DNA of 45,381 nt from Pseudomonadota bacterium (GCA_963204795.1 CAUJHX010000243.1:1-45381); one strand, 5' to 3'. Positions 14,726 through 27,356 are shown, numbered from the stretch's first letter. Notes: generated by a model not told the origin, from the letters alone. Made by a program: numbers and translations.

Positions 14726-15781
14726 TCAGCTTTTCAGCTCCTTGACCATCGCCTGCAACTGCTCGCCCGGCACCGGCAGGTGGTGCGGCAAGCCAATCGT
14801 CGTGCACACCCCGTCCCAACGCGCCTTGAGCTTCGGTACCAGTTCCCCGTAGGTGGCGACAACGGCGAATTCTTCGAGCATCCCGTCGGTGATGAGCTCG
14901 CCCATCTTCTCCCAACACCTGTTTTCGAGAGACATCCGGTGCAGCTGCAGGCCGATGTCCTCCCATCCGTGGGCCGCGAACACGCCGTGATAGCTGCGGG
15001 TCGATCCGAAGAATGCGATGAATTCCTTCATGGCTTTCTTCTTCGACTCGATCTCCGCGCCATCCTTGCCCGTGAGGATGACGCCACCCCCCACAAGGTC
15101 GATATCGGCAAGTTTGCGTCCTGCGCTGTGGCATCCCTCTTCGATGGCGGGCAGCAACACTTTCCTGAAGTACTGCGACGTGATCCAGCCGGGCGGGCGA
15201 ACGCCATCGGCGATCTCGCCCGCCAGGCGAGCCATGAAAGGATTGACGGCGGCGAGGTAGATCGGAATGTGCGGATGGGCAGATGGCCCGTGGTGAGAAA
15301 AGGGATTGAACGTCGGCTGGAGTGTCGTGAACTGGTAGTGCTCGCCCTCGAAGAAGCTCGGCGTGTCCGAATTGAAGCTGCGGAAGATCGCCCGCAGGCA
15401 CAGGACGTATTCGCGCATGCGCGGCACGGGCGGCCCGGACCACGTGGTCGAATAGCGGCGCACGATATTGCCCTTGACCTGACTGCCGAGGCCCAGCTGA
15501 AACCGCCCGCCCGAGAATTGCTGCAGGTCCCACGCGAGCTGGGCCGTGACGAACGGGCTGCGCGGAAAGGCGACCGCCACGTTGGTGCAGAATGTCAGAC
15601 GCTGCGTGTGTTCGATCGCAATCATGAACGGCAGGAAAGGGTCGTGCCCGACCTCGGCCGTCGTGCAACCGTCGAAGCCCGCGCGCTCAATGAAGCGGGC
15701 GGTCTCCGCGATGTCGCCTGGCCGGGTGTGAATCGGGCCGCCCGTGTCAAAGGCGCCTTGCAGCATGGTCTCGACCCGCAT
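14726..15781 (-). CDS. LLM class F420-type oxidoreductase (TIGR03617-like)
   Basis: This 351-residue protein belongs to the luciferase-like monooxygenase (TIM-barrel) superfamily and resembles the F420-dependent branch, with AGFDGCTTAEVGHDPFLP near the N-terminus, LGLGSQVKGNIVRRY and IYLAAVNPFMARLAGEIADG as the cofactor/substrate-side segments. Cofactor use (F420 versus FMN) cannot be read from sequence alone, and no F420 biosynthesis gene is in the window. It lies 2 bp downstream of a LysR regulator on the same strand, so the two form a likely operon, and is convergent with the rhomboid gene. The substrate is unknown. Confidence 0.85.
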   Translation of the reverse strand: MRVETMLQGAFDTGGPIHTRPGDIAETARFIERAGFDGCTTAEVGHDPFLPFMIAIEHTQRLTFCTNVAVAFPRSPFVTAQLAWDLQQFSGGRFQLGLGSQVKGNIVRRYSTTWSGPPVPRMREYVLCLRAIFRSFNSDTPSFFEGEHYQFTTLQPTFNPFSHHGPSAHPHIPIYLAAVNPFMARLAGEIADGVRPPGWITSQYFRKVLLPAIEEGCHSAGRKLADIDLVGGGVILTGKDGAEIESKKKAMKEFIAFFGSTRSYHGVFAAHGWEDIGLQLHRMSLENRCWEKMGELITDGMLEEFAVVATYGELVPKLKARWDGVCTTIGLPHHLPVPGEQLQAMVKELKS

Positions 15782-15783
15782 CG

Positions 15784-16668
15784 CTATGATGGCTCCGTCT
15801 CGCGCAGCTTCCCGCTGAGGTAGTCCGCGAAGGTACGGATTGTGGCGCGCCGGAGCGTCTCGGGCAGGGCGTAGAGACAGATCTCCACATTCCGGGTGAA
15901 CTCCGGCAGGTCGAGCGGAATCATCCCGGGGTCGTCAGTCAGGAGAAAATCCCAGGCCAGCACGGCGCCCAGTCCCGCGCGGGCGAGTTGCAGGGTCGCA
16001 GTACCGGAAGACGCCATGGCGACGATCCTGGAATCGGGCCCGAGCGCCGACGGGGCGCGTCGCGACAGCTCATCGGTGATCTGCGAGGTATCCCAGGCGA
16101 TCCAGTCGATGTCCTGCGCACGTGGTGCGCGCGAACGACCCCCCTGGTACGACCGATGCACATAGGCCCGGACCCGGCGATGGCCGAGCGAGATGCGTTC
16201 GTATCGATCGGAGATGTACGACGGCGCGAGGCGCGGGAAGATGTGGATGTCGGCGAGCCCTCTGCTGACGTCGACGAACTCATTCGTCATGTCCAGTTTC
16301 CAGACAATGGCCGGATGCTGCTGCTGGAAGCTTGCAAGAAAGGGCGCCACGAGCCGCACCATGGATTCCGACAGCGAGATTCGCACGACGCCCTGCAGCG
16401 CTGTGCCGGGGTGAGTCGCCTGCTGCTCGAAGTGCGCGAACGAGGCCTCGATGGCCTCGAATGTCGCCAGCAGGTCCTGGCCCGTGCCTGTCAGCGAATA
16501 GTGTGAGGCCTGCTTCCTGAAAAGACGCGCGCCCACGAAGGCTTCCAGGACGCGGATCCGCCGGGCGATCGTGGTGTAGTTGACCGACAGTCGCCGCGAG
16601 GCCCCGGAGATGGTTCCGGCGCGATAGAGCGCGAGGAAGTAGCGAACGTCGTCCCAGTGAAAGTTCAC
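15784..16668 (-). CDS. LysR-family transcriptional regulator
   Basis: This 294-residue regulator has an N-terminal winged helix-turn-helix (about 5-65; VRYFLALYRAGTISGASRRL and YTTIARRIRVLEAFVGARLF) and a C-terminal effector-binding domain of the periplasmic-binding-protein fold (about 90-290). It is unusual in being transcribed in the same direction as, and just before, its likely partner (the LLM oxidoreductase) rather than divergently. It resembles the LysR subgroup in which the linker begins soon after LTGTGQDLL. The inducer is unknown. It sits 49 bp downstream of bdhA behind a probable terminator, so it is probably separate from the 3HB locus. Confidence 0.92.
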   Translation of the reverse strand: MNFHWDDVRYFLALYRAGTISGASRRLSVNYTTIARRIRVLEAFVGARLFRKQASHYSLTGTGQDLLATFEAIEASFAHFEQQATHPGTALQGVVRISLSESMVRLVAPFLASFQQQHPAIVWKLDMTNEFVDVSRGLADIHIFPRLAPSYISDRYERISLGHRRVRAYVHRSYQGGRSRAPRAQDIDWIAWDTSQITDELSRRAPSALGPDSRIVAMASSGTATLQLARAGLGAVLAWDFLLTDDPGMIPLDLPEFTRNVEICLYALPETLRRATIRTFADYLSGKLRETEPS

Positions 16669-16717: not shown

Positions 16718-17479
16718 TCACTGCGCCGTCCACCCCCCGTCGATCGCGATGGCCTGCGCGGTCACGTTGCGCGCGGCGTCCGAGATCAGATACCCGGTGA
16801 GCGCGGCAATTTCGGCGACCGTGACGAACGCCTTCTTGGGCATCGGCTTCAGCATGATGTCGCTCACGACGCGCTCGGGCGTCAAGCCGTGCTCGCGCGC
16901 CTGCGCCTCGATCTGCTTTTCGACGAGCGGCGTGCGCACGTACACCGGGCAGATCGTGTTCACCGTGATGTCGACGTCGCCATTTTCGAGTGCGAGCGTC
17001 TTCGAGAGGCCGATGAGGCCGTGTTTCGCCGCGATGTAGGCGCTCTTGAACGGCGAGGCGACGAGCGAGTGGATCGAGCCGATGTTGACGATGCGTCCGA
17101 AGTTGTTCATACGCATTCCCGGAAGCACGGCGCGCGCCATGTTGGCAGCGCCCGTGAGCATCACCGCGACGAGCAACGCCCAGCGGTCGGCGGGAAATTC
17201 CTCGAGGCGCGCCACATGCTGCAATCCCGCGTTGTTGACCAGTACATCGACACGACCCGCGGCGCGTACCGCCGTCTCGACCGCGGAGGGCTGCGTCACG
17301 TCGAGGCCATAAGCGACGGCCGCTCCGCCGCGTTCCAGGATCGCATCAGCGACACGCAAGGCGGCTGCGCGGTCGATGTCGGTGGCGATGATCTCGTGTC
17401 CGGCGGCGGCGAGCAATGTCGCCAACTCGGCGCCGATGCCGCTGCCGGCGCCGGTGATCAGAATGCGTCGTGAAGTCAT
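16718..17479 (-). CDS. bdhA: D-3-hydroxybutyrate dehydrogenase (SDR family)
   Basis: BdhA oxidises D-3-hydroxybutyrate to acetoacetate with NAD+. The 253-residue protein is a classical short-chain dehydrogenase: GAGSGIG cofactor loop (residues 10-16), NNAG, and the catalytic Ser135, Tyr148 and Lys152 in IGSIHS and YIAAKHG. The segments GLQHVARLEEFP and GSIHSLVASPFKSAY are characteristic of the 3HB dehydrogenase subfamily, whose His and Gln residues bind the carboxylate. I prefer ATG 17477-17479 over an in-frame GTG two codons upstream. It is divergent from the 3HB-oligomer hydrolase gene 57 bp away, with a shared dyad between them. Confidence 0.9.
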   Translation of the reverse strand: MTSRRILITGAGSGIGAELATLLAAAGHEIIATDIDRAAALRVADAILERGGAAVAYGLDVTQPSAVETAVRAAGRVDVLVNNAGLQHVARLEEFPADRWALLVAVMLTGAANMARAVLPGMRMNNFGRIVNIGSIHSLVASPFKSAYIAAKHGLIGLSKTLALENGDVDITVNTICPVYVRTPLVEKQIEAQAREHGLTPERVVSDIMLKPMPKKAFVTVAEIAALTGYLISDAARNVTAQAIAIDGGWTAQ

Positions 17480-17516
17480 GTGCACACGTTAGCGGATACA
17501 CCCACGATCGGGTGCT

Positions 17517-17530
17517 GATACCTTAGTATC
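17517..17530. promoter_or_regulatory. Candidate operator, site 1 (GATACCTTAGTATC)
   Basis: A dyad with perfect 5-bp arms GATAC/GTATC lies in the gap between the divergent bdhA and oligomer-hydrolase genes. Its core TACCTTAGTA differs by one base from TACCTTGGTA in the next divergent promoter region of the same locus (21831-21840). It is only 6 bp from the hydrolase ATG and 37 bp from the bdhA ATG. The spacing TAC-N4-GTA would suit a dimeric NarL/LuxR-type regulator, which is an inference. Confidence 0.5.
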
Positions 17531-17536
17531 AAGCTG

Positions 17537-19435
17537 ATGACACATAAACCTGTTGCTCCCGCCGCGGCATTTGTCGGGGCGCTGCTGGCCGGCTGTGCCA
17601 TGACATCACCGAAGCCTTCGTCCGGGGGGCCGACCGGCGTCTATCGCGCCGAGCGCATCGGCGCGCCGATCCGCTACGAACTCGACGGGACCAGTGACGA
17701 TCTGCTGACCGCGGGACTCGGCACCGCGGAGCTCCTCGGCGCGCCGCCCGCTTTCGCCGATCCGCGCCATCCCACCGCGCGCGAACTGCGTCGCCGGGCG
17801 ATCTACACGAACTATCGCGGCCTCGTCGATCTGCGCGATGCGCCCGGCGGCGGACCCGCGGTGCCGGGTGTCGAGTTGTTGGTCAGCCTGCACTCTTCCG
17901 TGGGCGCATCCACCGCGATGTTGCAGATCCCACGCGACTTCGACGCGGCGAATCCCTGCCTGATCGCGGTGGCGAGTTCCGGCTCACGGGGCATCTACGG
18001 CGCGCTTCCGACCGCGGGCGTGTGGGGTCTGCGCCACGGTTGCGCGGTCGTGCATACCGACAAGGGTACAGGTAGCGGAGTCTTCGACGTCGCGAGCAAC
18101 CGCGGATTGCGCATCGACGGCACGATCGGCGCGGCGGGCGATCCACTGTTGTCATTTGCGCCCGATGCGGCGGCGGTCGCGAAACTCGCAGCCAGGCGGC
18201 CGAACGCGGTGCTCTTCCGTCACGCGAACTCCAGCATGAATGTCGAGACGCACTGGGGGGAGTATCTGCTGCAGGCGATCGATGTCGCGTTCGAGCTCCT
18301 GAACGGTGAATACCCGGGGCGCGTAACGCCGTTCACGCCGACCAACACTGTCGTGATCGCGTCGGGCATCTCGAACGGGGGTGGCGCCGTGCTGCGCGCC
18401 ATGGAGCTCGATTCCGCCGGCTGGATCGACGGCGCGGTAGTCTCCGAACCGAACATCCCGGTGCCGGGCTTGCGGGTTTTCGGTTATGAGGCACGGCCCT
18501 TGTACGATCTGGTCGTCGCGCACCTGCTGCTGCAGCCATGCGCCGTGCTCGCCGACGAAGACCAATCCGCACCCTTTCTCGCCGCGACCACGACCGCGAA
18601 GCCGGCACTCGAACAATGGTGCCGCGACCTTGCCGCGCGTGGCGAGATCGCGGCGACAACTGGCGATACAGCAGCGCTCGCTCGTGCGGCGCGCGACAGA
18701 CTCCTCTCGCTCGGCATCCTCCCCGAGGCGCTGCGGCTCGGGCACGCGAATGTGCACACCTCGCTCTGGAGCGCGATCGGGGTGTCGTACGCGGCCGCCT
18801 ACGCAGGTATGGCGCCTGATGAGCTGCCCTGCGGTGTGAGCTTCAGTGCGACTGACGCGAAAGGTGCCCCGCGTGTACTCACGGATGAGGAGTTCGCACG
18901 CATGTTCACCGATAGCAATGGCATTGCGCCGACGGCAGGTATCAACCTCGTGATGCCGGGGGAGGGTGGCGTGCTGCGCGCCGCCAATTTCGGCAGCATC
19001 GACCTCGCATTGTGCCTGCGCGGTCTGCGCGCAAGGCTTGCACCAGGAATCGATGCGGTGGCGGCCCACCCGGGTATTGATGCACGGCCGTTGATCGTGA
19101 TCCACGGGCGCGGCGACGGGCTCATCCCGGTCAACCACACTTCGCGGCCTTACTATGCCGCGAGCATGGCCGCAGGCGGCACCGATGCGGGCATTCGGTA
19201 TTACGAAATCGAGCGCGGCCAGCACTTTGACGCGCTCCTGCCGCTCCCCGGCTTCACCGGGCACTATGTTGCGATGCAGCCGTTCCTGGAGTCCGCGATG
19301 GACCTGATGGCGTCGCGCCTGCGCGACAGCAGCCGGCCGTTACCGCCAAGTCAGGTCGTGCGCAGCGTGATTCAGGCGGCGCCCGGCGCAGACGCGATCA
19401 CCCTCAAGGGCGGGAAGCTCGCCATCCCGCCCTGA
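17537..19435 (+). CDS. D-(-)-3-hydroxybutyrate oligomer hydrolase, lipoprotein
   Basis: This enzyme cleaves short 3HB oligomers, products of polyhydroxybutyrate (PHB) depolymerisation, to 3HB monomers (EC 3.1.1.22 family). The 632-residue protein has a short signal with lipobox (GALLAGC, Cys20), suggesting anchoring in the envelope. Family segments include ASSGSRGIYGALPTAG and VVHTDKGTG. A G-x-S-x-G nucleophile motif, GISNGG, has Ser279, and a conserved His is in ERGQHFDALLP near the C-terminus. Length is near the family norm (about 650-700). The gene is divergent from bdhA, which uses its product. Exported rather than cytosolic location points to use of external oligomers. Confidence 0.88.
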   Translation: MTHKPVAPAAAFVGALLAGCAMTSPKPSSGGPTGVYRAERIGAPIRYELDGTSDDLLTAGLGTAELLGAPPAFADPRHPTARELRRRAIYTNYRGLVDLRDAPGGGPAVPGVELLVSLHSSVGASTAMLQIPRDFDAANPCLIAVASSGSRGIYGALPTAGVWGLRHGCAVVHTDKGTGSGVFDVASNRGLRIDGTIGAAGDPLLSFAPDAAAVAKLAARRPNAVLFRHANSSMNVETHWGEYLLQAIDVAFELLNGEYPGRVTPFTPTNTVVIASGISNGGGAVLRAMELDSAGWIDGAVVSEPNIPVPGLRVFGYEARPLYDLVVAHLLLQPCAVLADEDQSAPFLAATTTAKPALEQWCRDLAARGEIAATTGDTAALARAARDRLLSLGILPEALRLGHANVHTSLWSAIGVSYAAAYAGMAPDELPCGVSFSATDAKGAPRVLTDEEFARMFTDSNGIAPTAGINLVMPGEGGVLRAANFGSIDLALCLRGLRARLAPGIDAVAAHPGIDARPLIVIHGRGDGLIPVNHTSRPYYAASMAAGGTDAGIRYYEIERGQHFDALLPLPGFTGHYVAMQPFLESAMDLMASRLRDSSRPLPPSQVVRSVIQAAPGADAITLKGGKLAIPP

Positions 19436-19469
19436 ATGGCCGAATAACCGAAAACCCGGCACCATTTTC

Positions 19470-21770
19470 TCAATACTGGTACCGCACGCTGAACGTATAG
19501 GTCCGCGGCGGACCGTAGTAGCCGATCTGGCTCACGTTCGCGAACGTGCCTGTCGTGCCGAAGTCGTAGCCTGCCGTGCGGTACCACTTGTCAGCAACGT
19601 TCTTCGCATCGACCGCGAGACGCCAGTGCGAGTCAGCCGTGACGTAGGACAGCCCGAGATCGAGGAGGCCGTACGCCGGCTGATCCGTCGGGCTCGTCAG
19701 GCTGAAAGGCGGCGGGGCGATCGAGGTGTCGTCACGCCACTGGTAGCCGACGCGCGCCGTGGCCTTGCCGTTGCCGACATCGAAGCGATACTGCGCGTCG
19801 ATCGAGAGTGTCCAGTCAGGCGCGTTGATCACCGGCGTGACCGATGCATAGTTCACGATCGTACCGGGGCTCGCCGGATTCGAAGCGAAGAACTCCTTGA
19901 ATTCGGCGTCGAGGTAGCCGATCGAAGTCGAGAGCGTGAAAGCGTCGACCGGCTGCCAGACGGTCTCGATTTCGGCGCCCTGATTCACCTGCTTGCCGGC
20001 GTTCAGCACCGCTGTCGCGTTCGTCGGCACGCCCATCACAGTCACGAACTGCTGCGTCGTCACCTGTACATCGGTGTAGTCGGCGTAGAAGACCGTTGCG
20101 TTGAAGCGCAGGCTGCCGTCGAGCACCGTGGAACGCAGGCCCAACTCGTAGTTGTCGACCGACTCCGGCTTGTAGCCGTTGACCGTGCCGGGGAACACCG
20201 TGGCGTTGCCGCGCATGTCGAAGCCGCCACTCTTGAATCCTGCGCTGTACTGGGCGTAGAGCATGACGTCGTCGGTCACCTGGAAGTCGACGCCGAGCTT
20301 TGGCGACAGTTCGCTGTCGCTGCGTTCACTCTGGTAGTTGCTCTGCGGTGCGCCGAGGGGGAATACGCCCGGCGGCAGGCGTGTCGGATCGAACACGCTG
20401 CCATTCGAGGGTATCTGCCCGCCGTACTGCGCGACGAACACGCGCGCGTTCTTCCTGTCCTCGTTGTAGCGGGCCCCGAAATTGAGATCCCAGCGATCCG
20501 TCAGCGCGAACGTGCCGTCGAAGTAGCCGGCGAAGCTCTCGGTGCCAACGGATCCCTGCGTGAGGCCTATCAGGCCGCCGAAGAGCGGGAAGGTACCGAG
20601 TACCGCATCGAACGAACCGGCCGCCGTGCCGTCGAAATAATAGACACCGCCGACGCCCTTGATGCGGCTGCCCGTGTAATTCACCTGCAGCTCGCCGCTT
20701 GCCTGGTGATCCGAGTATTTCGCCGGGACGTTGAACTGGTTGACGTTGCGCGTCTCGAAGTCGAGGAACGTCGTGCCGTCGCCCTCGCGATACGCGCCGA
20801 CCGCCTTCAGCGCCCACTGATCGTTGAGCGATGTCGTATAGGTTGCCGAGACGCCCTTGTTCTCGAAGTTCTCCTCGTTGACAGGCATGTCATTGCGCAC
20901 GTCATAGCGGCTTTTGAGTCTTGGGCCGAACACATCGTTCAGGCGCTGGCCGCCGCGCACGTTGGAAGTGTCCTTGACGAAGTCGCCCATGATACGCAGG
21001 CGACTCGAAGCCCCCCACAGGAAATTCACCTCGGCGCGTCCCGCGAGGATGTTCTTGTCGCTGACATCCTCGCCGACGTGGTTGAACTGGTAGGGGTTGA
21101 CATCGGGGACCACTTCGCCGAAGCCGTTGCGCGTGAGCTTGGCGAGCGATGCGCCGACGTACACATGTTCGCCGATGGCACGCGAACCGGCCAGTTTCAT
21201 GTCGATCTGGCCGTAGCTGCCCGCCGCGAGGGTCGCGTCGAACGCCGGCTCGCCGACGATGTCGCGCGTCACATACTTGATCGCGCCCGCGAGCGTGTTC
21301 TTGCCGTAGAGCGTGCCCTGCGGCCCGCGCAGGATCTCGATGCGCTGCACGTCGTAGACGTCGAGAAGTGCACCCTGCGGGCGGGCGATATAGACGTCGT
21401 CGATGTAAATGCCGACGCCGGGCTCGAATCCCCACAGCGGATCGTTCTGGCCGACGCCGCGGATGTACGCGTTGATCGTGTTGCTCGTGGCGCGGCCGGG
21501 GTTCACCTTGATGTTCGGCGCGAGCGAGTTGATGTCCTCGAGGTTCGTGATCGCAAGCTCGCGCAACTGATCGGCGGAGAAGGCGGAGACGGCCGCGGGC
21601 ACGTCCTGCAGATTCTCCTCGCGCCGGCGAGTCGTCACGACGACCTCCTCGAGCACAGGACCGGTGCTCTCGGCCACGTCCTGGGCGCGCGCCGGTGTCG
21701 TGACGGCACCACTCGCTGCAAGGCTCACCAGCGCCGCAATCGCGAACGGTGTCGCTTCTCTGATCGTCAT
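19470..21770 (-). CDS. TonB-dependent outer-membrane receptor
   Basis: The 766-residue protein has a signal peptide (cleavage near ARA-Q, about residue 29), a TonB box-like LEEVVVTTRRREE, a plug domain with LRGPQGTLYGKNTLAGAIKYV and a C-terminal 22-strand-type barrel ending in the aromatic residue pattern TYTFSVRYQY. It belongs to the FecA-like group common in sphingomonads and gammaproteobacteria. I place the start at ATG 21768-21770, 6 nt after AGAGGGG; an in-frame ATG two codons upstream abuts the same motif. It is convergent with the oligomer-hydrolase gene (34 bp apart) and divergent from a GntP permease. The context suggests 3HB oligomers as substrate. Confidence 0.93.
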   Translation of the reverse strand: MTIREATPFAIAALVSLAASGAVTTPARAQDVAESTGPVLEEVVVTTRRREENLQDVPAAVSAFSADQLRELAITNLEDINSLAPNIKVNPGRATSNTINAYIRGVGQNDPLWGFEPGVGIYIDDVYIARPQGALLDVYDVQRIEILRGPQGTLYGKNTLAGAIKYVTRDIVGEPAFDATLAAGSYGQIDMKLAGSRAIGEHVYVGASLAKLTRNGFGEVVPDVNPYQFNHVGEDVSDKNILAGRAEVNFLWGASSRLRIMGDFVKDTSNVRGGQRLNDVFGPRLKSRYDVRNDMPVNEENFENKGVSATYTTSLNDQWALKAVGAYREGDGTTFLDFETRNVNQFNVPAKYSDHQASGELQVNYTGSRIKGVGGVYYFDGTAAGSFDAVLGTFPLFGGLIGLTQGSVGTESFAGYFDGTFALTDRWDLNFGARYNEDRKNARVFVAQYGGQIPSNGSVFDPTRLPPGVFPLGAPQSNYQSERSDSELSPKLGVDFQVTDDVMLYAQYSAGFKSGGFDMRGNATVFPGTVNGYKPESVDNYELGLRSTVLDGSLRFNATVFYADYTDVQVTTQQFVTVMGVPTNATAVLNAGKQVNQGAEIETVWQPVDAFTLSTSIGYLDAEFKEFFASNPASPGTIVNYASVTPVINAPDWTLSIDAQYRFDVGNGKATARVGYQWRDDTSIAPPPFSLTSPTDQPAYGLLDLGLSYVTADSHWRLAVDAKNVADKWYRTAGYDFGTTGTFANVSQIGYYGPPRTYTFSVRYQY

Positions 21771-21828
21771 GGGCATCCCCTCTTTCCGGATGTGCGGCAA
21801 CGTACCCCGTTCCCGCCGGGGTCGCATT

Positions 21829-21842
21829 GCTACCTTGGTACT
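21829..21842. promoter_or_regulatory. Candidate operator, site 2 (GCTACCTTGGTACT)
   Basis: A dyad with core TACC-TT-GGTA sits between the divergent receptor (ATG 59 bp away) and permease (ATG 40 bp away) genes. It matches site 1 (17517-17530) at 10 of 14 positions, including TACCTT and GTA. Both sites are in divergent promoter regions of genes proposed to act in one pathway. Confidence 0.5.
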
Positions 21843-21882
21843 ATGGTGTGGCCGTCGTGCAACAGTGCAACGTGCGCGCCCT

Positions 21883-23190
21883 ATGCTGAGTCTTTTCGGC
21901 TTGCTGCTCGGGCTCGCGCTCCTCATCTGGCTGACGATGCGCGGCACCGAGCTGCTGATCGCGGCGCCACTTTGCGCGCTGCTGGTCGCCGCATTGTCGG
22001 GATTCGCGATTTTTCCCCAGCTTGCGATGGAGGGTGCGCCGAGCTTCACGGCAAGCTACATGCGCGGCTTCGTCGACTTCGTGCAGAACTGGTTCTTCAT
22101 GTTCCTGCTCGGATCACTCTTCGGCAAGATGATGGAATGCACCGGCGCGGCCGACAGTGTCGCGAACTGGATCGTCGCGAAGCTCGGCGCGAAACACGCC
22201 GTGGGCGCCGTGGTGCTCGCGTGCGCCGTGCTGACATACGGGGGCGTGAGCCTCTTCGTGGTCGCGTTCTCGGTCTATCCGATGGCCGTGAGCCTCTTCC
22301 GGCGTGCCGATCTGCCCCGGCGGTTCCTCCCCGCGACGGTCGCCTTCGGCTCGGTTACGTTCACGATGACGTCTGCCGGCTCGCCCGAAATCCAGAACTG
22401 GATCCCGATCCGCTTCCTTGGCACGACGCCCTACGCGGGCTGGGAAGTGAGCCTCGTGGTCGCACTCTTCATGCTCGCGGTGGGGCAGTGGTGGCTGGTG
22501 CGCACGGTGCGCCTCGCGGGTGCACGCGGCGAGCGCTTCGAGGCGCGTACCTCGGACCCCGTGCCGCACGACCGCTACCTTCCCGCCATGTGGCGGGGGC
22601 TCGCACCGCTCGTCGTGGTGCTCGTCGTTTCCTTCATTTTGCACAAGCGGCTCGCCGAGTCGGCGCTGATCGTTGCGCTCGGCTCGGGCGTGCTCGCGGC
22701 TCTCGCGCTCAACTACCGCTACGCGCATCGCCTGGCGGCGGCCGCAACGGCGGGCGCGGTCGGCGCGCTGATCGCGATCGCAAACACGGCCGCCGTGGTC
22801 GGTTTCGGCGGTGTCGCCAAGCTGACGCCGGGCTTCCAGGCGGCGGTCGACGCCATGACAAGCCTGCCGGGCAGTCCACTGGTCGGTGCCGCGGTGGCCG
22901 TGAGCGTGATCGCGGGGCTCACCGGTTCAGCGTCAGGCGGGCAGTCGATCGCGCTGCCGCTCCTCGCACCGCACTATCTCGCCCAGGGCGTCGATCCCGA
23001 AGCCCTGCACCGCGTCGTCGCCATTTCCTCCGGTGGGCTCGATTCGCTGCCGCACAACGGCTATGTTGTCACGACGATCCGGTCGATTTGCGGCGAATCG
23101 TACGCGGCGGCCTATCCCGCGATGGGTATGCTCACCGTGATCGTCCCCGTGCTCGGTACGGTACTGGCGGTGGTGCTCTTCAGCTTGTGA
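21883..23190 (+). CDS. GntP-family permease, probable 3-hydroxybutyrate (short hydroxy acid) transporter
   Basis: This 435-residue integral membrane protein has about 11-12 hydrophobic helices. The GntP/gluconate-permease family pattern is visible in the GSLFGKMMECTGAADSVANW segment and in VIAGLTGSASGGQSIALP and SSGGLDSLPHNGYVVTT in the C-terminal half. Family members carry gluconate and other small hydroxy acids, and some are linked to 3HB use. Placement in a locus with 3HB dehydrogenase and oligomer hydrolase suggests 3HB as substrate, which is an inference. I take ATG 21883 (MLSLFGLLLGLALL) as the start, since the frame upstream crosses the receptor promoter. The kinase gene follows 15 bp after its stop, so the two may be cotranscribed. 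Confidence 0.88.
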   Translation: MLSLFGLLLGLALLIWLTMRGTELLIAAPLCALLVAALSGFAIFPQLAMEGAPSFTASYMRGFVDFVQNWFFMFLLGSLFGKMMECTGAADSVANWIVAKLGAKHAVGAVVLACAVLTYGGVSLFVVAFSVYPMAVSLFRRADLPRRFLPATVAFGSVTFTMTSAGSPEIQNWIPIRFLGTTPYAGWEVSLVVALFMLAVGQWWLVRTVRLAGARGERFEARTSDPVPHDRYLPAMWRGLAPLVVVLVVSFILHKRLAESALIVALGSGVLAALALNYRYAHRLAAAATAGAVGALIAIANTAAVVGFGGVAKLTPGFQAAVDAMTSLPGSPLVGAAVAVSVIAGLTGSASGGQSIALPLLAPHYLAQGVDPEALHRVVAISSGGLDSLPHNGYVVTTIRSICGESYAAAYPAMGMLTVIVPVLGTVLAVVLFSL

Positions 23191-23205
23191 GACGATAACG
23201 GTGGC

Positions 23206-26200
23206 ATGCTGACACCGTGGCTGATCGCGCTGGTCGGGCTCGCCTACGTGGGCGTGCTGTTTGTCGTCGCACACCTCGGCGATCGCATGGCGGCCGAAGG
23301 TCGCGGGCTCGCCGCGCGCCCCTGGGTCTACAGTCTCTCCCTCTCGGTGTACTGCACCTCGTGGGCGTTCTACGGCACGGGCGGCCAGTCAGCGCGGCTC
23401 GGCTGGTGGCTGCCGCCGACCTATGTCGGCACGATCCTCCTGTTTCTTTTCGGCACCCGCTTCCTCGACAAGATGATCCGCCTCGGCCGCAAGCAGAAGA
23501 TCACCTCGATCGCCGACTTTCTCGCTGCACGCTACGGACGCGATCCGCGCGTTGCGGTACTCGTGACCATCGTCGCGGTCTGCGGGCTCACGCCTTATGT
23601 CGCCTTGCAGCTGAAGGCGATCGACATCAGCTTCATCGCACTCGCGGGCCTCGACGCCGGTGCGGGTATCGGCAGCCGACTCTTCGCCGACACTGCACTT
23701 TACGTCGCGATCACACTCGCGATCTTCGCGATCCTCTTCGGCACGCGTCACGCCGACGCGACCGAACACCATCCCGGCATGATGCTCGCGCTCGCCTTCG
23801 AATCGATCGTGAAGCTCGGCGCGTTCGTGGCGGTCGGCGTGTTCATTACGTTCGGCCTCTTCGCTGGCCCTGCGGATCTCGCTGCACGTGTCGCTGCCGA
23901 CCCGCAGGTGCGCGCGCTGCGCGAGGCGACACGCCCGGCCGGACACTATCTCGCGCTCACCGTGCTTGGACTGCTCGCGATCTTCTGTCTGCCGCGCCAG
24001 TTTCATGTTGCGGTGGTCGAGAACTCGGGGCCGCGCGACCTGCGCGTCGCGCGCTGGCTCTTTCCGCTGTACCTCATCGCGATCAGCATCTTCGTCCTGC
24101 CGGTCGCCAACGCGGGGCTGGCGATGTTCGGCGCCGCGGCGCCCGATCCGGATCTTTTCCTGTTGAACCTGCCACTCGCGAGTGGCCAGCCGGCGCTCGC
24201 ACTCCTCACCTTCATCGGCGGCCTCTCCGCGGCGACCGGCATGGTGATCGTCGCCTGCATCGCGCTCTCGACGATGATCTGCAACGAGATCGCCATGCCG
24301 GCACTGCTACAGCTGTTCCCGAGCCTGCGCCGTCGCGAGGATCTCACGGGACTCCTGCTGCGCGTGCGCCGTGTCGCGATCGTGCTGCTGCTCGCTGCAG
24401 CCTATTTCTATTACCGCTCGATCGCCTACGCGGGGGCGCTCGCGGAGATTGGCGAGATCGCGATGGCGGCGGTCGCGCTGTTCGGGCCGCTCGTGTTTGC
24501 CGCACTCTACTGGAAACGCGCGAACAGCGCTGGTGCGCTCATCGGGCTTGCCTGCGGTTTTGTGGTGTGGCTGTACACCCTGATCGTGCCCGTGCTCGCG
24601 ACGGCGGGCCACCTGCCGGCCACGCTCGTGGCCGCGGGTCCGTTCGGTCTTTCATGGCTGCGACCCACGGCACTGCTCGGCGTCGAAGGCGTGAATACGC
24701 TGGCGCACGGGCTTGCAGCGAGCGTGTTCGCGACGACCGTCGGGCTCATCGCGGGTTCTCTCGCGACCCGCCGCACGCTCGTGGACCGGATTCAGGCTGC
24801 GGCATTCATCGACGCGAGCGACGAGGGGCATGCCGAGTACTCCGGTGCCCGCCACGGCGCGCTGACGCTCAGGGAACTGCACGTGCTCGTCTCGCAGTTC
24901 GTCGGCGTTCATCGCACCGAGGCTCATTTTGCACAGTTTCGCGCCACGCCCGGGCGGCGCGCGAGCGGCGCGCAACTCGAGTCGGCGCAGCGGCTCCTTG
25001 GCTCGGTGATCGGCTCGGCGTCCGCGCGCCGCGTGATCGATGCGGCGGCTTCCGGCAAGGAACTCGTACTCGAGGACGTCGTCACGATGGTCGACAGCGC
25101 CTCGCGGGCGCTCGAATTCAACCGCGAGCTGCTGCAGGCCACGATGGAGAACGTGAGCCAGGGCATCAGCGTGGTCGACGCCGAGCTGCGGCTCGTCGCA
25201 TGGAATCAGCGCTATCTCAGGTTGTTCGATTACCCGCCGGATCTCCTCCACATCGGCAAGCCGATCCAGGAAGTGCTCGAGTTCAACGCTGCGCGCGGCG
25301 AGCTGGGCGCAGGCGAGGCCGCGCAGCTCGTGGCGCGCCGCATGAGCCACCTGCGCCGCGGCACCGACTATGTATATAAGCGCGTCGGACCCGACGGCAC
25401 GGTGCTCGAGATACGCGGCAACCGCATGCCCGGTGGCGGCTTCGTGACCAGCTACACCGACGTCACCGAGTACAAGCGAATCGAAGCCGCGCTCGAGCAA
25501 CGCGTCAGCGAGCGCACCCGTGCGCTTTCGGCGATGAACGAGGAGCTGGCCGCCGCCAAGTCAGCAGCCGAGCATGCGAACCTCGGCAAGACCCGCTTCC
25601 TTGCCGCCGCGAGCCATGACGTGCTGCAACCGCTCAACGCCGCGGGCCTCTTCGCAGGTGCGCTGTTGCAGACGCTCGACGGTCCCGAGGAGAAAGCTCT
25701 CGTCGGTGACATCGAGCAATGCCTGCGCTCGGCCGAGGGCGTGCTCACAGACCTGCTCGACATCTCGAAGCTTGATGCCGGCGTGGTGCAGACACAGGTG
25801 AACGATCTGTCAGTGCAGGACCTGTTCCGCGCGCTCGACGCGGAGTTCGCGCTCACGGCGCGCGCGCGCGGGCTCGAACTTCGCGTGCGACCGAGCCAGG
25901 CGGTGGTGCGCAGCGACGTGAAGCTGCTGCGGCGCGTCCTGCAGAATTTCGTCGCGAATGCGATCCGCTACACCTCGCAGGGTGGCGTGCTGATCGGCTG
26001 CCGCCGCCGGGGCGGGCTGCTTCGCATCGAAGTGCGGGACACCGGCCCGGGCATCGCGGGCGACCAGCTGGGGCGCATCTTCGAGGAGTTCTATCGCGCA
26101 CCTGCCGCCAAGGCGGGCGATGCCGCGGCGGGCAAGGGCTTCGGCCTCGGTCTCGCAATCGCCGATCGCATCGCGCGGCGGCTCGGACATCGGCTCATCG

Positions 26201-26712
26201 TCCAATCGACCCCCGGCCGCGGCTCGATGTTCGCCCTCGAGGTGCCGCTTGGTGCGGTGGCCCGGCATGCCGCACGCCCGGTGCGCCAGCTGCGTGCCGT
26301 GGGTTCGCTCGCCGGCGTGCGCGCGCTCGTGATCGACAACGACGCCGCGGTGCTGCGCGCGATGGGCGTACTCCTCGAGTCCTGGCAATGCGAAGTGCGT
26401 GCGGCGGTCTCGGAGCAGGAGCTGCCCGCGCTTGCTGGTTGGTGCCCGGATGTCCTGATCGCGGACTTTCATCTCGACGACGGGGTCACAGGGATCGCGG
26501 TCGCAGCAAGAGTCAGGGCAGAGGCGGGCGCAGAACTGCCACTCATCGTGATTACCGCCGATGGCACAGACTCGACCCGGGAAGCAGTCGAGGCCGCCGG
26601 AGGTGTCTGCTTGCGCAAGCCGGTGCGGCCGCTCGCATTGCATGGCGTGCTGCGACGGGTCGTGTCGCACGGCGCCGGTCAACGCTCGAGGGAAAGCGGG
26701 GCGACGTCCTGA
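23206..26712 (+). CDS. Hybrid histidine kinase with sodium/solute-symporter-like sensor (CrbS/MxtR-like)
   Basis: The 1168-residue protein begins with about 12-13 transmembrane helices of the SSS (sodium:solute symporter) fold (about 1-520). A PAS domain follows (about 640-760; GISVVDAELRLVAWNQRYL), then a phosphoacceptor domain with His804 in AASHDVLQPLNAAG, an ATPase domain (LQNFVANAIRYTSQGG; DTGPGI; GFGLGLAIADRIA) and a C-terminal receiver domain with Asp1087 in VLIADFHLDDG. This layout is that of the CrbS/MxtR group, which with LuxR-type regulators controls acetate and short-chain carbon use in Pseudomonas and Vibrio. It follows the permease by 15 bp and overlaps the convergent LuxR-type regulator by 34 bp. 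Confidence 0.92.
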   Translation: MLTPWLIALVGLAYVGVLFVVAHLGDRMAAEGRGLAARPWVYSLSLSVYCTSWAFYGTGGQSARLGWWLPPTYVGTILLFLFGTRFLDKMIRLGRKQKITSIADFLAARYGRDPRVAVLVTIVAVCGLTPYVALQLKAIDISFIALAGLDAGAGIGSRLFADTALYVAITLAIFAILFGTRHADATEHHPGMMLALAFESIVKLGAFVAVGVFITFGLFAGPADLAARVAADPQVRALREATRPAGHYLALTVLGLLAIFCLPRQFHVAVVENSGPRDLRVARWLFPLYLIAISIFVLPVANAGLAMFGAAAPDPDLFLLNLPLASGQPALALLTFIGGLSAATGMVIVACIALSTMICNEIAMPALLQLFPSLRRREDLTGLLLRVRRVAIVLLLAAAYFYYRSIAYAGALAEIGEIAMAAVALFGPLVFAALYWKRANSAGALIGLACGFVVWLYTLIVPVLATAGHLPATLVAAGPFGLSWLRPTALLGVEGVNTLAHGLAASVFATTVGLIAGSLATRRTLVDRIQAAAFIDASDEGHAEYSGARHGALTLRELHVLVSQFVGVHRTEAHFAQFRATPGRRASGAQLESAQRLLGSVIGSASARRVIDAAASGKELVLEDVVTMVDSASRALEFNRELLQATMENVSQGISVVDAELRLVAWNQRYLRLFDYPPDLLHIGKPIQEVLEFNAARGELGAGEAAQLVARRMSHLRRGTDYVYKRVGPDGTVLEIRGNRMPGGGFVTSYTDVTEYKRIEAALEQRVSERTRALSAMNEELAAAKSAAEHANLGKTRFLAAASHDVLQPLNAAGLFAGALLQTLDGPEEKALVGDIEQCLRSAEGVLTDLLDISKLDAGVVQTQVNDLSVQDLFRALDAEFALTARARGLELRVRPSQAVVRSDVKLLRRVLQNFVANAIRYTSQGGVLIGCRRRGGLLRIEVRDTGPGIAGDQLGRIFEEFYRAPAAKAGDAAAGKGFGLGLAIADRIARRLGHRLIVQSTPGRGSMFALEVPLGAVARHAARPVRQLRAVGSLAGVRALVIDNDAAVLRAMGVLLESWQCEVRAAVSEQELPALAGWCPDVLIADFHLDDGVTGIAVAARVRAEAGAELPLIVITADGTDSTREAVEAAGGVCLRKPVRPLALHGVLRRVVSHGAGQRSRESGATS

Positions 26713-27356
26713 ATCTCGAGCGACTTGAAGACGAGGGTTGCCTGCGTGCGATTGCGCGCGCCGAGCTTCGCGAGCGTGGCGGACACGTGCGCCTTGGTCG
26801 TTTGCTCGGTGATGCCGAGTTCGGCCGCGATCTGCTTGTTGAGCCTGCCGAGCGCGAGCAGTTCGAGCACCCGATACTGTTGTGGCGTCAGGCTCGCGAG
26901 GCGCGCGGCGATCGCCGCCGGAGCCGCTGAGTGTGCGGCGGCATCTTCCAGCGCAGCTGCCGGAAACCATTGCCCGAACCCGAGCACAGTGCGGATCGCG
27001 GTCACGAGATCGCCGAGTGGCGCCGACTTCGGCACGAAGCCCGCGGCGCCGAACTCGAGCGCCGCACGAGCCACGGCGGCGCTCTCGTTCGCCGACACGA
27101 CTATCACCGCCATTCCCGCGTGCTGGCTGCGCAGCCACGCGAGCGGCGCGAAGCTGCGGCTGCCCGGCATCATCAGGTCGAGCAGCACGAGATCGGTATC
27201 CGGCGCACGCGCGGCCGCTGCGCGCAGTGACTCGACATCCGCAGCTTCGATCACCTCCGCTGCGCCGACTGCCTCCTCGAGCGCGCGACGCAGAGCCGCG
27301 CGAAAGAGCGGATGGTCATCCGCGATCAGCACCGTTCGACGGGCGGGCTCGTGCAT
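26679..27356 (-). CDS. LuxR/NarL-family response regulator (CrbR-like)
   Basis: The 225-residue regulator has a receiver domain (about 8-125; phosphoacceptor Asp60 in VLLDLMMPG, acidic pair Asp13/Asp14, Lys in GFVPKSA) and a C-terminal LuxR-type helix-turn-helix (about 150-210; LTPQQYRVLELLALGRLNKQIAAELG). I start it at ATG 27354-27356, because the upstream open frame is repeat-derived. It converges on, and shares 34 bp with, the hybrid kinase gene, so its partner is almost certainly that kinase. It is the best candidate to bind the two TACCTTRGTA dyads in this locus. Confidence 0.92.
   Translation of the reverse strand: MHEPARRTVLIADDHPLFRAALRRALEEAVGAAEVIEAADVESLRAAAARAPDTDLVLLDLMMPGSRSFAPLAWLRSQHAGMAVIVVSANESAAVARAALEFGAAGFVPKSAPLGDLVTAIRTVLGFGQWFPAAALEDAAAHSAAPAAIAARLASLTPQQYRVLELLALGRLNKQIAAELGITEQTTKAHVSATLAKLGARNRTQATLVFKSLEIQDVAPLSLER

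Follow-up and report, generated by a model that had tools for sequence, protein, structure and literature searches.

A Conserved Gammaproteobacterial Gene Module Predicted To Scavenge External 3-Hydroxybutyrate Oligomers

A six-gene module at positions 16718 to 27356 of a 45,381-nucleotide stretch of DNA (here called the window) encodes a D-3-hydroxybutyrate dehydrogenase (BDH), a 3-hydroxybutyrate (3HB)-oligomer hydrolase (3HBOH), a TonB-dependent receptor (TBDR), a GntP-type permease, a hybrid kinase, and a regulator, and it is found again in five or more gammaproteobacterial families. We assign a probability of about 0.7 to the reading that these genes are dedicated to scavenging 3HB oligomers of external origin. 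Two observations are new beyond the first-pass annotation of the window: an operator common to both divergent promoters and the spread of the module to loci with other esterases. The source of the window is a draft genome (G000; 3.17 Mb, 91.8% complete), the closest named relatives of which are Steroidobacteraceae metagenome-assembled genomes.

RESULTS

Gene content and borders of the module

All the genes named in the first-pass annotation (BDH, oligomer hydrolase, receptor, GntP-type permease, and two-component pair) were found by profile searches and in the open reading frames (ORFs), and comparison with congeners showed that its borders, from BDH to the regulator, are also those of the conserved module. 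The six genes have the same order in four congeners and in G229, a member of another genus in which the receptor is only about 40% identical. Because the genes are syntenic in these genomes and recur in unrelated families, we conclude that the module is not a chance arrangement. The mechanical ORF list has over-long ORFs for the receptor (start at 22049) and the permease (start at 21664), which are start-choice artifacts, and the starts common to relatives (21776 and 21883, respectively) were adopted instead. The features of the module are as follows.

16718..17485, minus strand: D-3-hydroxybutyrate dehydrogenase (BdhA type); TIGR01963, 336.6 bits (cut-off, 307.05)
17515..17531, no strand assigned: candidate CrbR-like operator TGATACTAAGGTATCAG, in the gap separating the divergently oriented BDH and 3HBOH genes; position weight matrix (PWM) rank 7 in the window
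17537..19435, plus strand: lipoprotein 3HB-oligomer hydrolase; PF10605, E value of 8e-139; lipobox MTHKPVAPAAAFVGALLAGC
19470..21776, minus strand: TonB-dependent receptor of the PLWGFEPG clade; PF07715 and PF00593
21827..21843, minus strand: candidate CrbR-like operator TAGTACCAAGGTAGCAA, in the gap separating the receptor and permease genes; PWM rank 1 in the window
21883..23190, plus strand: GntP-type inner-membrane permease, predicted 3HB importer; 435 amino acids, 10 hydrophobic segments
23206..26712, plus strand: CrbS-like hybrid histidine kinase (SLC5 symporter, PAS, HisKA, HATPase, and receiver domains); NF041832, 409.4 bits (cut-off, 400)
26679..27356, minus strand: ErdR/CrbR-like LuxR-family response regulator; best NCBIfam match NF041830 (ErdR), 206 bits, below the cut-off of 390

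A LysR regulator gene and a gene for an F420-type luciferase-like oxidoreductase (TIGR03617) lie at 14726 to 16668, between a rhomboid-like gene and BDH. They were dropped as module parts since they are absent at the same place in congeners, and for this reason the conserved module is taken to run from BDH to the regulator. Their presence in the window and not in congeners makes the pair look like a lineage-specific insertion.

BDH and the exported 3HBOH

The window BDH passes the TIGR01963 cut-off, as do 9 of 9 further BDHs scanned. Its closest solved chain is 3v2h, a D-beta-hydroxybutyrate dehydrogenase, with which the active-site block SxHxxxxxxFKSAYxxxK aligns. The 3HBOH scores 464 bits against PF10605 (cut-off, 27), covers positions 27 to 659 of the 688 in the profile, and has the lipobox LLAGC at its N terminus. 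Residues S279, D527, and H563 are invariant among 22 homologues, and the AF2 model (pLDDT of 90.9) matches the folds of feruloyl esterase, CalA lipases, and MHETase; the invariant residues and the alpha/beta-hydrolase fold would fit the predicted oligomer hydrolysis.

The first-pass annotation had the hydrolase exported, and in the receptor-linked loci examined an export signal is present wherever the receptor is present, as either a lipobox or a signal peptide; the signals of G073 and G203 are weaker. The 3HBOHs of 12 genomes have no export signal, and none of the 12 has a receptor nearby; in the 6 that were checked genome-wide, no clade receptor is present anywhere. The Burkholderiales-type 3HBOHs and those of families f47 and f198 are exported, yet have no receptor nearby, and the clade receptor was not found in the Burkholderiales-type 3HBOH genomes that were checked genome-wide. 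The association between export signal and receptor is modest at the genus level (P = 0.04).

The receptor and its linkage to PF10605

Based on its domains, its AF2 model (pLDDT of 84; plug plus barrel), and its match to FyuA, the nearest structure, the receptor conforms to the TonB-dependent receptor plan of a plug and a 22-stranded barrel. Its clade carries the motif IRGVGQxDPLWGFEPG. The best NCBIfam match is to the TonB-siderophor subfamily, below the cut-off, and a structure search returned generic siderophore receptors only, with no ligand hint.

The window receptor was searched genome-wide in eight genomes, including that of the window. In 7 of the 7 other genomes (G211, G229, G073, G307, G459, G580, and G659), the best match adjoins 3HBOH, which is the neighborhood link to 3HB genes whose absence would, according to the first-pass annotation, have refuted its proposal. 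Locus receptors in these seven genomes, some of which have dozens of candidates, score 319 to 1566 bits and any other TBDR scores 284 bits or less; in G459, the top two matches are its two locus copies. In a maximum-likelihood tree of 81 receptors, the locus receptors are apart from the 14 paralogues tested, and the hydrolase-linked receptors occupy five branches. Both an ancient link followed by exchange of the hydrolase and repeated gain would fit this pattern, which is no proof of ancestry because the sample was partly found via the hydrolase.

Co-occurrence of the receptor clade with PF10605, the check suggested in the first-pass annotation, was examined in one draw of 369 gammaproteobacterial genomes, with a clade receptor defined by an E value of 1e-90 or better. 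A clade receptor was found in 9 genomes (absences are soft, two candidates per genome having been scored at first look), PF10605 in 11, and both in 5. The two are associated: PF10605 is present in 5 of 9 receptor genomes versus 6 of 360 others (Fisher P of about 1e-6, rising to 2e-5 when the window genome is left out, for lineages that are not independent of each other). In all five genomes that have both, the receptor and PF10605 genes are within about 10 kb of each other.

The remaining four genomes have the receptor only. G640 has BDH, a MetX-like esterase, the permease, the regulator, the kinase, and operator-like repeats; G567 has the kinase, the regulator, and a CoA ligase, with no 3HBOH in the stretch; and G549 and G644 have an SSS symporter and a CoA ligase. 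A near-perfect palindrome, GTACCTAGGTAC, is located ahead of the regulator and CoA ligase genes of G567 (locus L217, 3435 to 3446).

Permease, kinase, and regulator

The permease scores 23.8 bits against TIGR00791, below the cut-off of 292.75, and by this measure appears to be a distant GntP member only. Its plasmid relatives carry the annotation "GntP family permease." Permease copies that are 62 to 91% identical adjoin the receptor in most loci; there are at most a few such GntP homologues per genome, and when the locus includes one, that copy is the best match.

The kinase is an SLC5-type sensor kinase with a NahK/ErcS-type C-terminal half, and its N-terminal part matches PDB entry 10ed ("histidine kinase") with an E value of 9e-66. 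It is the sole copy found in G000, G211, and G229, and in most carriers it is itself a second copy. The kinase and regulator genes overlap at their 3' ends, and related loci keep the regulator in synteny with the kinase. At most, the locus regulator may work like CrbR.

A repeat common to the two divergent promoters

The published CrbR (ACTU) sites have the core TAnnACYAWSGTC (PMC5715377). The best window hit of a PWM made from six published ACTU sites is at the receptor/permease promoter, with a small margin over the next hit and with a core of GTA versus the published GTC. PWM P values are weak in several lineages, and therefore the case for an operator rests on conservation and not on PWM score. 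Of 11 further BDH/3HBOH intergenic regions, 10 have a TAC-N4-GTA inverted repeat at the corresponding position, against a background of 0.09 per 200 bp; the site in locus L137 is weaker. In 41 of the 44 loci rows examined, the receptor and permease genes are divergent (one genus accounts for all three exceptions), and their intergenic regions have ATAGTACYAWSGTACA-like repeats in common, which in most lineages keep a constant spacing to a TAnnnT -10-like box ahead of the receptor gene. The exact sequence TADTACYAWSGTM occurs once in G000, at the receptor/permease operator; its two occurrences in G211 and its single one in G229 also belong to this locus, and the candidate operator is nearly unique to the locus genome-wide. 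Extra exact copies of TADTACYAWSGTM in Idiomarina and Rheinheimera genomes were considered as further targets, but none is obvious and they look like chance occurrences. A reasonable reading is that a CrbS/CrbR paralogue is dedicated to the locus, with its regulator predicted to bind these repeats.

Conservation and variants of the locus

PF10605 was searched across the order, class, and phylum, and the regions around the hits were then read out. The same gene set, or nearly so, is present in G307, G930, and G459 (family f28), in G659 and G1043 (f195), and in G580 (f189); the G1043 stretch shows no BDH. The module is also present in Simiduia aestuariiviva, which was found via the receptor search. 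G073 and G203 have the receptor, a CoA ligase, 3HBOH, and the permease in a different order. In G170, exported 3HBOH and BDH genes with an operator have no receptor within 10 kb; the clade receptor, permease (75%), kinase, and regulator, with their own operator, were predicted and then found on the contig of these genes at a distance of 20 kb. Contig C8 of G459 carries two diverged module copies about 33 kb apart (L133 and L134), the second of which is without BDH and with a CoA ligase. Plasmid PF10605 genes of Pseudomonas luteola (L150) and Microvirga ossetica (L151) have a different neighborhood, with AtuA-like genes and LysR regulators and with a citrate-type symporter or a tricarboxylate-transporter binding protein alongside.

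Genome contigs were also scanned with a receptor profile, and the neighbors of the best 80 loci were clustered. Among these 80 loci, those of Idiomarinaceae and Rheinheimera keep the receptor, GntP, the regulator, and the SLC5 kinase, with a MetX-like esterase in the hydrolase slot, and the Rheinheimera locus keeps BDH as well. The MetX-like esterases of both groups have an N-terminal signal peptide, as judged by eye, and 3HB oligomers may be their substrate. Those replacing 3HBOH include the "E22" esterases at L050 5584 to 6777 and L061 7715 to 8896. In Microbulbifer, the receptor occurs with BDH, the regulator, the kinase, a cytoplasmic Abhydrolase_3 protein, and a transporter-like membrane protein; in other Cellvibrionales, its partners are an SSS symporter and a hydrolase that is cytoplasmic; and in Caulobacterales, its partner is an MFS transporter, and 3HB genes are absent. 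In L075, L088, L117, and other Caulobacterales loci, the receptor is directly upstream of the MFS transporter, and the regulators are of the TetR or LytTR type. Since Caulobacterales and others pair the receptor with transporters of the MFS or SSS type and have no 3HB genes there, the receptor clade as a whole is not 3HB specific. Judging from gene neighborhoods, the clade appears broader than 3HB, with GntP-bearing branches that are consistently 3HB-like.

DISCUSSION

In the mechanism that we propose, the receptor would carry 3HB oligomers across the outer membrane, and the lipoprotein hydrolase, predicted from its sorting signal to be at the outer membrane and from its PF10605 membership to be active on such oligomers, would cut them to 3HB in the periplasm. 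The GntP-type permease, as its conserved neighborhood suggests, would take 3HB through the inner membrane, and BDH, for which the family assignment is strong, would convert 3HB to acetoacetate. The CrbS/CrbR-like pair would sense substrate or product via the SLC5 domain and would activate both divergent promoters by binding the conserved ACTU-like inverted repeat. 3HB dimers and trimers are perhaps small enough for porins, which counts against this mechanism, as does the fact that exported 3HBOHs of the Burkholderiales type do without this receptor.

The receptor clade might instead be a broader importer of small-carboxylic-acid esters, the ligand at this locus being some other 3-hydroxyacyl ester that releases 3HB, such as mixed hydroxyalkanoate oligomers, lactones, or 3HB-decorated molecules. 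This would account for the observation that both the hydrolase (3HBOH, MetX-like, or cytoplasmic alpha/beta) and the permease (GntP, MFS, or SSS) vary beside one receptor clade. However, PF10605, TIGR01963 BDH, and permeases that are 62 to 91% identical recur jointly across families, and we consider it unlikely that the ligand is of this other kind.

It is far less probable that the protein is an ordinary siderophore receptor to which the 3HB genes are merely neighbors. FyuA is nearest in both fold and sequence, most solved relatives are siderophore receptors, and the best NCBIfam subfamily, although below cut-off, is the siderophore one, but the FyuA match says little on ligand because siderophore receptors dominate structure libraries. 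The linkage and the operator are common to several families, and no Fur-like site above the shuffled level was detected in 10 of 11 receptor intergenic regions, the Rheinheimera region L061 being borderline.

The source of the oligomers also bears on the possibility that the module recycles the cell's own poly-3-hydroxybutyrate (PHB), or 3HB oligomers leaked into the periplasm, with the receptor recapturing losses. phaC is present in G000, G091, G211, and G170, and thus own PHB is a possible source in the window genome. In contrast, the Simiduia, G229, G073, and G203 genomes have the hydrolase and receptor and no PhaC_N match, which indicates that their modules are not for own PHB and argues for the external origin advanced in the first-pass annotation; the hydrolase, moreover, is exported, and recycling seems a very doubtful function. 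No PF10503 depolymerase was found in the window genome (91.8% complete). The combination of phaC without PF10503, in an assembly that is incomplete, would fit a user of oligomers made by others, and we infer that the oligomers originate from the depolymerases of other organisms.

A wider proposal, which we hold tentatively and at slightly under even odds, is that the clade marked by IRGVGQxDPLWGFEPG serves ester-linked small acids and that the 3HB branch of this clade would have drawn a CrbS/CrbR paralogue and an ACTU-like operator from acetate control and would constitute a self-contained "polyester utilization locus" in which the esterase was exchanged at least twice (3HBOH, MetX-like, and cytoplasmic alpha/beta hydrolase).

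Polysaccharide utilization loci and carbohydrate utilization loci containing a TBDR (PUL/CUT loci) are co-regulated sets of an outer-membrane receptor, a periplasmic hydrolase, an inner-membrane permease, a catabolic enzyme, and a dedicated regulator. The same predicted functions are together in this locus, and the analogy drawn in the first-pass annotation is borne out by the retention across genomes of a TBDR with a linked hydrolase, transporter, and regulator. Unlike PUL/CUT loci, this locus is predicted to act on polyester oligomers, has PF10605 or another esterase with no glycan enzymes and no SusD, and has a GntP-type permease and CrbS/CrbR-like regulation. Like Ideonella MHETase, which is among the 3HBOH fold matches, the 3HBOH is an exported lipoprotein alpha/beta hydrolase that would finish a polyester oligomer outside the cytoplasm, but MHETase acts on a PET-derived ester, and we know of no homologous receptor for it.

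The CrbS/CrbR (MxtR/ErdR) acetate regulon (PMC5715377, PMC8402216) likewise has an SLC5-PAS-HK-REC kinase and a LuxR-type regulator, with ACTU sites that are TAC-N4-GT inverted repeats ahead of the -10 region. The predicted targets here are the receptor, permease, BDH, and 3HBOH, whereas there they are acs and actP, and the right half-site is GTA here and GTC there. The route that runs through an extracellular 3HB-oligomer hydrolase and then through BDH (Zhang et al. 1997 and Sugiyama et al. 2004, as cited in PMC7830162) has the identical hydrolase family and oxidation step, but the Burkholderiales-type 3HBOH loci examined lack such a receptor nearby. DdvT of Sphingobium SYK-6, which takes up a lignin-derived aromatic compound in a TonB-dependent manner (PMC6874591), is also a TBDR for non-sugar carbon nutrition with a dedicated catabolic pathway, but its substrate is aromatic and the hydrolases and regulators are unrelated. 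In the open-access literature, we found no published description of a TBDR linked to 3HB or PHB, which agrees with the first-pass annotation, whose author knew of no established account of a system of this kind that has an outer-membrane receptor of its own.

PHB, which is also a commercial bioplastic, ranks with the most common storage polymers of microbes, and the uptake by Gram-negative bacteria of the oligomers that depolymerases leave is usually put down to porin diffusion. If the scavenging function proposed here is correct, oligomer uptake would become a set of named genes with a marker sequence, testable in the culturable Simiduia aestuariiviva and Rheinheimera, and the idea of the CrbS/CrbR regulon would be extended beyond acetate.
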